DNA of 64,000 nucleotides. It comes from Psychroserpens jangbogonensis. Lineage in GTDB: Bacteria > Bacteroidota > Bacteroidia > Flavobacteriales > Flavobacteriaceae. The notes beneath the pieces were generated by a model. That model worked only from the letters and a program-made list of their open reading frames with translations, was not told the origin of the DNA and searched no databases. The stretch spans positions 1 to 64,000 of the forward strand of contig NZ_JSWG01000012.1 of the NCBI RefSeq assembly GCF_000797465.1, given 5' to 3'. Both the position numbers and the translations under genes were made by a program. Shown here piece by piece: positions 4,194-7,188 of the stretch; position 1 is the stretch's first letter, and each line of letters opens with the position of its first letter.

Positions 4194-5675
4194 ATGCAAC
4201 TATACCAAGACCAAACAATTCAAATTTATAATTCATTAAGCGGTAAAAAAGAAGTTTTCAAGCCTATTGAAACGGGTTATGTTGGCATGTATGTTTGTGG
4301 CCCAACAGTTTACAGTAATGTACATTTAGGTAATGTTAGAACATTTATGTCATTTGACATGGTGTTTAGATATTTAAAACATATCGATTTTAAAGTAAGA
4401 TACGTTAGAAACATTACAGATGCTGGACATTTGGAAAACGATGCAGATGAAGGTGAAGATAAAATCACTAAAAAAGCACGTTTAGAACAAATAGAACCTA
4501 TGGAAGTTGTTCAGCGTTATACTGTGGATTTTCATAATATTTTAAATACACTCAATTTCTTACCTCCAAGTATTGAACCTACAGCAACAGGACATATTAT
4601 AGAACAAATTGAACTTATCAAAACCATTATAGATAACGGTTTTGGATATGAAGTTAATGGTTCTGTTTACTTTGATGTACATAAATTTGATGAGTCTAAC
4701 GACTATGGAAAATTAAGCAAACGTAAGCTTGAAGACTTAATTCATAATACCAGAGCTCTTGAAGGGCAAAGCGACAAGAAAAATCCTCAGGATTTTGCTC
4801 TTTGGAAAAAAGCCGAACCTCAACACATTATGCGTTGGCCTTCTCCTTGGAGTGATGGTTTTCCAGGATGGCATTTGGAGTGTACGGCAATGAGCACAAA
4901 ATATTTAGGAGACAATTTTGATATTCATGGTGGTGGAATGGACTTAAAATTCCCGCATCACGAATGTGAAATCGCTCAAAGTGAAGCTGCAAAAGGAATC
5001 TCTCCAGTAAATTATTGGATGCATGCTAATATGCTTCAGTTAAATGGACAACGTATGTCTAAAACAACTGGAAACACAGTTAATCCTGATGAATTATTAT
5101 CTGGAAACAACAAATTCTTCAGTAAAGCTTATGGACCAAGCGTCATCCGATTTTTTAATGCACAATCATCGTACAGAAGTGTTTTAGATTTAACTGATGA
5201 TGGATTATTAGCGAGTGAAAAAGGCTTCTACAGATTAATGGATGCTATAAATGGTTTAGACGATTTAAAAGCAGGAACAACATCTACATTTAATGTATCC
5301 GAATGGAAACAAAAATGTTATGATGCCATGAACGATGATTTCAATTCACCCATTTTAATTGCTCATCTTTTTGAAGCCGGAAAATTAATCAATCAAATTA
5401 AAGACAATAATGCATCATTAACTTCTGAAGATTTAGAAGTATTAACACAAACTATGAATGCCTTTACCTTTGATGTCTTAGGATTGGAAAATGCTTCTAA
5501 ATCTGATAGTGGAACTGATAAACTTTCAGGAGCTGTTGATTTATTAATTCAATTACGACAGGATGCTAGAGCAAATAAAGATTTTGCCCTTTCTGATAAA
5601 ATTCGTGATGAATTAGCTGCTAAAGGGATTCAGTTAAATGATGGAAAGGATGGAACGACATTTTCGACCAACTAA
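4194..5675 (+). CDS. cysS: Cysteinyl-tRNA synthetase
   Basis: This 493-residue class I aminoacyl-tRNA synthetase charges tRNA-Cys. The HIGH-type signature is HLGN in [12 protein letters not shown] near residue 40. The zinc-binding residues characteristic of CysRS are present (CGPTVYSN near 31, GWHLECTAM near 225, [11 protein letters not shown] near 255), and the KMSKS loop is RMSKTTGN near 288. Length and domain order are normal: Rossmann catalytic core, DALR-type anticodon-binding helical domain at about 370-450, and a short C-terminal tail. It lies between folE and yidD on the same strand. Confidence 0.98.
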
Positions 5676-5719: not shown

Positions 5720-5956
5720 ATGAAAAAAATACTCATTGCTCCTTTTTTATTTCTTATTAAAGTCTACCAAATGTTAATTTCACCATTAACGCCAGCATCT
5801 TGTAGGTTTGAGCCTACGTGTTCTCACTACAGTAAAGAAGCACTTGAAAAGCATGGATTGTTAAAAGGCGGGAAATTAGCAATAATCAGGATTTTTAGTT
5901 GTCATCCTTGGGGGAAAAGCGGTTACGATCCTGTTCCTGAGAAGGATGACAACTAA
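5720..5956 (+). CDS. yidD: Membrane protein insertion efficiency factor YidD
   Basis: This is a 78-residue YidD protein, a small inner-membrane-associated factor that helps YidC insert membrane proteins. The family core is intact: a hydrophobic, amphipathic N-terminus ([16 protein letters not shown]), the Cys-containing [11 protein letters not shown] motif and the C-terminal [14 protein letters not shown]. The odd feature lies at the 3' end: the last ~15 codons are repeated twice more downstream within 122-bp tandem units, and the most distal copy encodes the same peptide with mainly synonymous changes. The present stop (...KDDN) is therefore probably not the ancestral one (...KED). Confidence 0.95.
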
Positions 5957-5990
5957 AAAAACATCAACACGCAAGCTCGCACGTTCACTA

Positions 5991-6011
5991 AAAATGTACA
6001 CTGTACATTTT
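5991..6011. repeat. Perfect inverted repeat in tandem unit 1
   Basis: Ten-base arms AAAATGTACA and TGTACATTTT flank one C. The arms form a hairpin or a dyad-symmetric binding site. The same element recurs in unit 2. Confidence 0.9.
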
Positions 6012-6113
6012 CTTTTTCGTTCCGTCGCCTTAGGGAAAAAGCGGTTACGATCCTGTTCCTGAGAAAGATGACAACTAAAAAAAACATCAACACGCAAGCT
6101 CGCACGTTCACTA

Positions 6114-6134
6114 AAAATGTACACTGTACATTTT
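6114..6134. repeat. Perfect inverted repeat in tandem unit 2
   Basis: Identical to the inverted repeat of unit 1, 123 bp downstream. It lies between the second and third copies of the yidD gene end. Confidence 0.9.
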
Positions 6135-6236
6135 CTTTTTCGTTCCGTCGCCTTGGGGAAAAAGTGGTTACGACCCTGTACCTGAGAAAGAAGATTAAAA
6201 CTATCTTAAGGTTTACTGCCATTCGAGCATAAATAT

Positions 6237-6244
6237 TATCTTTA
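6237..6244 (+). promoter_or_regulatory. Candidate -7 box for lgt
   Basis: TATCTTTA is one base from TAnnTTTG and sits 20 bp upstream of the lgt ATG. It would give lgt its own start downstream of the yidD repeats. Confidence 0.45.
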
Positions 6245-6264
6245 CCCAACACAAAACAAAACAT

Positions 6265-7188
6265 ATGTACGCTTTAGATATCGTCTGGAACCCTTCTAAA
6301 GGAATTGATTTAGGATTTTATACACTTCATTTCTACAGTTTAATGTGGATAACGGCCTTTCTATTAGGCTTCTTTATTATTAAACGTATTTTCAAAAACG
6401 AAAAGCAATCTAATGAAGCTCTAGATTCTCTATTTATCTACTCCGTTATTGGTATTATGCTAGGTGCACGTTTAGGCCATGTTATTTTTTATCAGCCTGA
6501 ATTAATCAATGATGATTTCTTTAGCATTTTTCTTCCATTCAAATTTAAAGGAGGTATTGAATTTACAGGCTTTCAAGGCTTGGCAAGTCATGGAGCTGCC
6601 ATAGGTATGATTTTATCTATGTATTTGTACAACAAAAAAGTAATCAAGAAAAGTGTGCTTTGGGTTCTCGATCGTGTTGTAGTTCCAGTTTCGTTAGGTG
6701 CCGTATTTGTGCGGTTAGGAAATTTTATCAATTCTGAAATTATAGGTAAAGCCACCGATTCTTCTTTTGGAATACAATTTATTCAAGACACCTACAATAA
6801 GTACGATGTTGTAAAAATCACAGGTATTAAAGACGTTAAAGATGCCTATACAGCTTTAGGTAGTGATCCTAAATACGCTGAGCTATTAGAAAAAGTACCA
6901 TTTAGACATCCTGCTCAATTGTATGAGGCGTTTAGTTATGTATTTGTATTTTTAATATTGATGTATATCTATTGGAAAACGAATAAAAGTGAGCAACAAG
7001 GCTTTTTATTTGGTTTGTTTTTAGTCCTACTCTGGACCGTTCGTTTCTTTGTAGAATATGTAAAGGAACCTCAAAATATTGAACGAGCAGATTGGCTTTT
7101 AAATACAGGGCAGTTATTAAGTATTCCTTTTGTTTTAATAGGATTATATTTCATGTTTGTTTATAAAGCGAAACAGAAATTGAGCTAG
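6265..7188 (+). CDS. lgt: Prolipoprotein diacylglyceryl transferase
   Basis: Lgt transfers a diacylglyceryl group from phosphatidylglycerol to the lipobox Cys of prolipoproteins at the outer face of the inner membrane. The 307-residue protein has about seven hydrophobic segments. It shows the family motifs GARLGHVIFY (near 75), the HG-loop region GLASHGAAIGM (near 112), the Lgt signature GNFINSEIIGKAT (near 152), HPAQLYEA (near 215) and the C-terminal RFFVEYVKEPQ. It is followed after 2 bp by a DUF192 lipoprotein, which is itself an Lgt substrate. Confidence 0.97.
   Translation: MYALDIVWNPSKGIDLGFYTLHFYSLMWITAFLLGFFIIKRIFKNEKQSNEALDSLFIYSVIGIMLGARLGHVIFYQPELINDDFFSIFLPFKFKGGIEFTGFQGLASHGAAIGMILSMYLYNKKVIKKSVLWVLDRVVVPVSLGAVFVRLGNFINSEIIGKATDSSFGIQFIQDTYNKYDVVKITGIKDVKDAYTALGSDPKYAELLEKVPFRHPAQLYEAFSYVFVFLILMYIYWKTNKSEQQGFLFGLFLVLLWTVRFFVEYVKEPQNIERADWLLNTGQLLSIPFVLIGLYFMFVYKAKQKLS

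Follow-up and report, generated by a model that had tools for sequence, protein, structure and literature searches.

Integrase-type elements that insert at the 3' ends of tRNA and tmRNA genes supply the gene with a replacement end and leave the old end behind as a direct repeat, and large integrative elements use the same kinds of sites, the ends of genes. The array behind yidD described here shares with them the insertion at a gene 3' end and the direct repeat, which is a likeness of sequence layout, and differs from them in that its units are only ~122 bp long and lack a gene of their own. Rickettsia palindromic elements, according to PMC2229807, are 105–146 bp long, carry no transposase gene, and are located between genes, in frame within protein genes, and in tmRNA genes. 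The palindromic family E, to which the spacers of the yidD array belong, is likewise short, dispersed and without a transposase gene, occurs in several insertion contexts, and is present in frame within RHS genes. Compared with the Rickettsia elements, E has a different sequence, lies after the tmRNA gene rather than inside it, and brings a copy of the gene end at yidD and at some tRNA and tmRNA ends. REP/REPIN sequences and GTAG/CGTC palindromes (PMC3733652) resemble E in being short, dispersed and present in many copies. They differ from E in that the Y1 (IS200-like) transposase PF01797 is missing from the genome of Psychroserpens jangbogonensis and from the genome G043, which contains 61 copies of E. 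No constant GTAG/CGTC tag was seen by eye in the alignment of the family, whereas the E of the window, which is the whole 64,000-nucleotide stretch of P. jangbogonensis DNA that was analysed, has CGTC near its end. No description of this palindromic element was recognised in the literature searched.

The array has the appearance of a tiny mobile element by which gene ends are exchanged. Our preferred reading, to which we assign a probability of roughly 45%, is that a non-autonomous palindromic mini-element of a flavobacterial family (E) is located at the 3' end of yidD, where it arrived with a gene end and then underwent tandem change. This is the best explanation on hand, and homologous import is its close rival. 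If the mini-element reading is true, elements of ~120 bp without genes are able to replace a conserved gene's end and leave its function intact, at sites of the kind used by large integrative elements.

Structure of the array behind yidD

The array consists of two units, of 122 and 123 bp, followed by a final copy of the gene end, so that the insert is flanked on both sides by a direct repeat of the gene 3' end. Each unit contains, in this order, CORE with the last yidD codons, ARM', which is the inverted form of the in-gene stretch preceding CORE, and the palindromic E of ~64 nt. The features are, in window coordinates:

4194–5675: cysS, upstream of yidD (name assigned by reading)
5720–5956, plus strand: yidD, 78 aa; its last codons, KDDN and stop, are supplied by the inverted repeat of unit 1
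5892–5909, plus strand: ARM, the in-gene left arm, codons for IFSCHPW, sequence TTTTTAGTTGTCATCCTT
5908–5941, plus strand: CORE1, in-gene copy of the duplicated gene end
5942–5959, plus strand: ARM', perfect inverted copy of ARM, bearing the yidD stop codon
5965–6029, plus strand: E copy 1, from the dispersed palindromic family, with its palindrome at 5991–6011
6030–6063, plus strand: CORE2, with a TGG codon changed to TAG
6064–6081, plus strand: ARM' of unit 2, 94% complementary to ARM
6088–6152, plus strand: E copy 2, palindrome at 6114–6134
6153–6198, plus strand: CORE3 and the native yidD tail, frame still open
6265–7188: lgt, downstream of yidD (name assigned by reading)
5876–6264, minus strand: two open reading frames, 82 and 103 aa long, that cross the array, probably by chance

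The original prediction, made from the letters of the window, held that the end of yidD is present three times and is separated by two near-identical spacers, each with an inverted repeat. The copies start at positions 5908, 6030 and 6153, and a scan of the whole window at ≤8 mismatches in 30 found no fourth. The spacer palindrome AAAATGTACA-C-TGTACATTTT is present in both units, and direct repeats of 117 nt (5955–6071 and 6078–6194) are 96% identical. The perfect 18-bp inverted repeat formed by ARM and ARM' (5892–5909 and 5942–5959) was absent from the prediction. The distal copy still reads as an open frame, as the prediction stated. Six synonymous changes and one D/E change had been reported between the distal and in-gene copies. 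These counts are correct; however, the D/E change and two of the synonymous ones lie outside the duplicated part, because ARM' encodes the in-gene ending KDDN-stop.

The layout of the array is not due to chance, because other genera have it too, in the same register. Within the genome of P. jangbogonensis, a 361-bp query spanning the array matched a single place, and a spacer query matched both units and otherwise gave only short weak matches. No tyrosine or serine recombinase of its own was found in the unit, where yidD and the two minus-strand frames of 82 and 103 aa are the only frames.

Occurrence of the unit in related genomes

YidD was found in 93 of 97 related genomes. The named yidD loci were the best 80 of 497, the others came from further relatives, and the sample was enriched for the unit, as the query carried the KDDN ending. 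A model of ARM' and E (R1) gave a match at the end of yidD in 36 of the 95 loci searched; L015 was not among these 95 sources, and L087 and L099 lie in the same metagenome-assembled genome. A script read 96 yidD loci, one of which (L117) had no ARM match to the pattern, and detected E in 33 of 95 loci and ARM' in seven more. Four of the seven (L053, L059, L078 and L107) show ARM' without a visible E, contig ends truncate two others (L042 and L060), and the E of L068 has diverged. The unit occurs in many genera of the Flavobacteriaceae; among the named carriers are members of Psychroserpens, Formosa, Xanthomarina, Bizionia, Hanstruepera, Algibacter, Lacinutrix, Pontimicrobium, Flavivirga, Winogradskyella and Subsaximicrobium.

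The comparison of yidD loci among relatives proposed in the original prediction showed that the number of units varies from none to several: the yidD end of some close relatives is clean, and assembled carrier loci contain one to three units, the latter in L083. The end of one contig and the start of another fall within the unit in Xanthomarina spongicola, and the assembly of Bizionia echini has a gap at the unit. These breaks suggest longer arrays, but the palindrome could also cause them. Carriers and non-carriers alternate on the CysS tree of 94 rows, as exemplified by Winogradskyella L074 and L098 and by Xanthomarina L049 and L076. Since close relatives differ in having no unit, one unit or a tandem array, the ends of yidD and ssrA in these bacteria would provide a simple PCR system for studying the movement of tiny palindromic elements. 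Neither a larger element, for which the prediction had suggested a search, nor a second gene end at ≤8 mismatches was found up to ~3 kb downstream of yidD in the 62 loci without a script-found E.

The alignment from ARM to ARM' is free of gaps in 39 of the 40 loci with a script-found ARM', and in L070 it is shifted by one base. The unit might be a functional RNA structure at the 3' end of yidD, in which ARM-CORE-ARM' and E would fold to end or protect the transcript and the duplication would be a by-product. The 18-bp stem is consistent with this model, as are the predicted fold of positions 5880–6210 (z = −3.89, none of 100 shuffles as stable) and the pairing of ARM with ARM' in 93.5% of cells in 39 loci, compared to at most 61.3% in slid controls. 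Five cells in ARM and ARM' contain two-sided changes, a number that none of 500 shuffles reached; however, slid controls gave up to four such cells, and covariation that looked convincing in single cases became weak once it was counted against them. The pairing is conserved rather than proven by covariation. In addition, R1 leaves 59 of 95 loci without the unit, and Rfam gave no relevant match for the array or the flanks of E. We consider the RNA structure a very unlikely explanation of the array.

Divergence of the duplicated gene ends

The front, in-gene CORE and the rear CORE were compared over 30 nt in 28 genomes, with the best ungapped match taken as the rear copy; L052, L063, L070 and L071, in which the rear end is decayed or absent, and L079, which has no second copy, were left out. 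The pairs contain 48 synonymous and 17 nonsynonymous codon differences, among them AGT/TCA and CGT/AGA exchanges, and six of the 28 pairs are identical. The synonymous fraction of 0.738 was matched in none of 1000 simulated runs of a simple duplication with a selected front copy and a neutral rear copy (mean 0.346, maximum 0.515). This speaks against a simple duplication and supports the reasoning of the original prediction that the two ends diverged under coding constraint, as two functional alleles; the observation on which it was built is real.

In 20 of the 28 genomes, the rear copy is still open and runs into a short tail and a stop codon, with one residue changed in L016, L045 and L048. 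Therefore, most rear ends look as if they had been coding until recently. Among the other eight, the first codon is a stop in L018, L086 and L104, the frame is changed or lengthened in L077, L082, L083 and L112, and L049 is cut by a contig end. The mean distances of front and rear ends to unit-free relatives, calculated from pairs that are not independent, were 0.203 and 0.177 (10 pairs), 0.186 and 0.181 (26 pairs), and 0.195 and 0.201 (58 pairs). On average, the two ends are equally far from unit-free relatives, and therefore the front end does not come from a distant species. For the window, G020 is the nearest relative, and each of the two ends differs from it at 2 of 30 nt. The proposal that the current gene end came from another allele is thus partly supported: the divergence is of the coding type, but the front end is on average no more foreign than the rear one.

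In the mini-element reading, a functional yidD end (CORE), the inverted preceding segment (ARM') and the hairpin of E together make up a unit. The CORE of a newly gained unit would take over as the gene end, and the prior intact end would be pushed downstream. Since the incoming CORE would serve as the gene end, yidD would stay functional. Later, recombination or slippage between the direct repeats of ~30 bp could add or remove units. We infer that the unit arrives together with the gene end, and its gain was probably repeated and recent.

The genomes G004 and G007 both contain the unit, and their E sequences differ by 14% and their CysS by 1.4%. Within each of the two, the front and rear CORE are identical and contain lineage-specific bases, which points to turnover of CORE copies. 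The whole array could be a local minisatellite, derived from one ancient insertion in this clade by vertical inheritance, tandem turnover, homogenisation of CORE and frequent exact loss. The three-unit array of L083 and the contigs that break within the array agree with this explanation. In the simple form of the minisatellite, however, the rear copy should gather nonsynonymous changes, contrary to the synonymous fraction reported above, and we regard this origin as unlikely.

Homologous import would spread an old tandem unit between strains and species by recombination of transformed yidD DNA within the conserved ARM and CORE, and the element itself would no longer be mobile. In L054, the front end and the upstream part of yidD differ from L043 by 0.27–0.29 and from L046 by 0.23–0.28, whereas the rear end differs from them by only 0.07 and 0.13, respectively. 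The E copies at yidD are also alike across genera, with a TGTACA stem and a TCGCC-like end, as judged by eye and not from a tree. It is therefore unlikely that E inserted anew in each case. However, L054 is the one clear case of import, and the synonymous sites of yidD are too diverged for the limits of imported tracts to be read. Import is a possible source of the array, if a somewhat doubtful one. The distances among E sequences did not track those among hosts (Mantel r 0.095, 753 of 5000 permutations as high, n = 25), which a short fast-evolving sequence could likewise yield. The alignment of E for this comparison was made without L077 and L079, and the Mantel test without L052, L063, L070 and L071 and without L056 and L075, which have no CysS row.

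The E family, its junctions and candidate enzymes

The spacer, for which the original prediction had proposed a search for further copies, belongs to a dispersed family, and at a few places the family abuts duplicated tRNA or tmRNA ends. The model of E (A2) has 64 positions and was built from 23 sequences, of which the row L140:1405–1468 was cut out of register. Two-sided changes occur in eight of the nine pairs of its hairpin (34 cells), which none of 500 shuffles reached. The family was matched in 15 of 18 chosen genomes, with 1 to 61 copies each, and in 20 of 296 genomes of the order at an E-value ≤1e-7. A regular expression recovered only 14 copies, and model coordinates were used in its place. 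A single pattern scan of viral contigs gave no matches to E, and a BLAST search with one E copy for carriage by phages or plasmids gave short matches only, with E-values of at least 0.4.

The contexts of E are diverse. Positions 4478–8611 of L150 contain E in frame within two RHS-like paralogues; it is missing from the third paralogue, relative to which E replaced ~13 bp. In L167 and L241, which represent two families, E is located 9 nt from the end of a match to group II intron domains D1–D4, and in L240 it is found at CGTC-type repeats (name assigned by reading). A flank with the look of a TPP riboswitch in L144, L160 and L208 was unreported by Rfam at the gathering score.

E also takes part in larger repeat arrangements. 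In G043, the genome of which is a single contig, E forms the central part of a ~200-bp dispersed repeat (for example L182–L201). Five tandem copies of E with steps of 90–138 bp are present in G321 (L232, 4323–4794). Further along L232 (6512–14138), seven copies, all in the same orientation, are interspersed with one or two genes each over ~8 kb, and the arrangement is cassette-array-like.

The first 45 nt to the right of E were sought within the 260 nt upstream for 84 copies, which came from fetched, non-random loci, with five of the 20 G043 stretches used, and without L133–L136, L140 and the contig-end copy in L169. The right flank recurs upstream of 12 of the 84 copies, compared to 4 of 84 control stretches, and the other 72 copies have no flanking duplication at the threshold. 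After removal of three simple-repeat cases in L232, eight of nine repeats begin exactly at the right edge of E, and that of L149 is one base off. The exact-edge duplications are those of tRNA-Asn (L145 and L154), a repeat region near tRNA-Ser (L163), tmRNA (L138, L146 and L219), yidD (L226), and a 19-bp repeat around 85 bp in L217. The right edge of E can thus be the junction of a duplication. The duplications at E range from 12 to ~39 bp, or there are none.

At tmRNA, the sequence GGGATTCGAA or a near form of it lies to the left of E and is the inverse of TTCGAATCCC, which precedes the duplicated end. The inverted match spans 7–10 nt in L138, L146 and L219, to which the contig-end locus L169 can be added by likeness. 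The tmRNA cases may share a single origin. E might pick its targets by pairing, with the hairpin and a short guide directing insertion at gene 3' ends by means of a hypothetical partner enzyme. The segment to the left of E does invert the sequence 5' of the duplicated gene end, over 18 nt at yidD. However, the inverted likeness extends over a few bases only at tRNA-Asn and L217 and is missing at L163, and the T arm comes close to being its own inverse. Such guiding is highly improbable.

Searches for enzymes were directed at several classes. PF01797 was absent from 10 of 14 genomes, including those of P. jangbogonensis and the E-rich G043, and an origin of the REP/RAYT type was therefore ruled out. 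Reverse transcriptase PF00078 is present in P. jangbogonensis, G010 and G043; it is absent from nine of 12 genomes, including the unit- or E-bearing G004, G007, G012, G021, G047 and G321, and a need for it in the origin of E was not shown. Tyrosine recombinase PF00589 was found in 12 of 12 genomes, including G036, G045 and G054, in which no E reached the threshold. A putative integrase acting in trans is possible. No terminal inverted repeats of the MITE type were seen by eye, and a parent insertion sequence was sought only as the Y1 transposase.

The tRNA-Asn ends of G004 and G007, inspected by eye, have duplications without E. Short tandem copies of the tRNA-Asn end with terminator-like trailers are present in G007 (L246), G004 (L248) and G008 (L242). 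By eye, the trailers swap places between the species, and E is present there only in G008.
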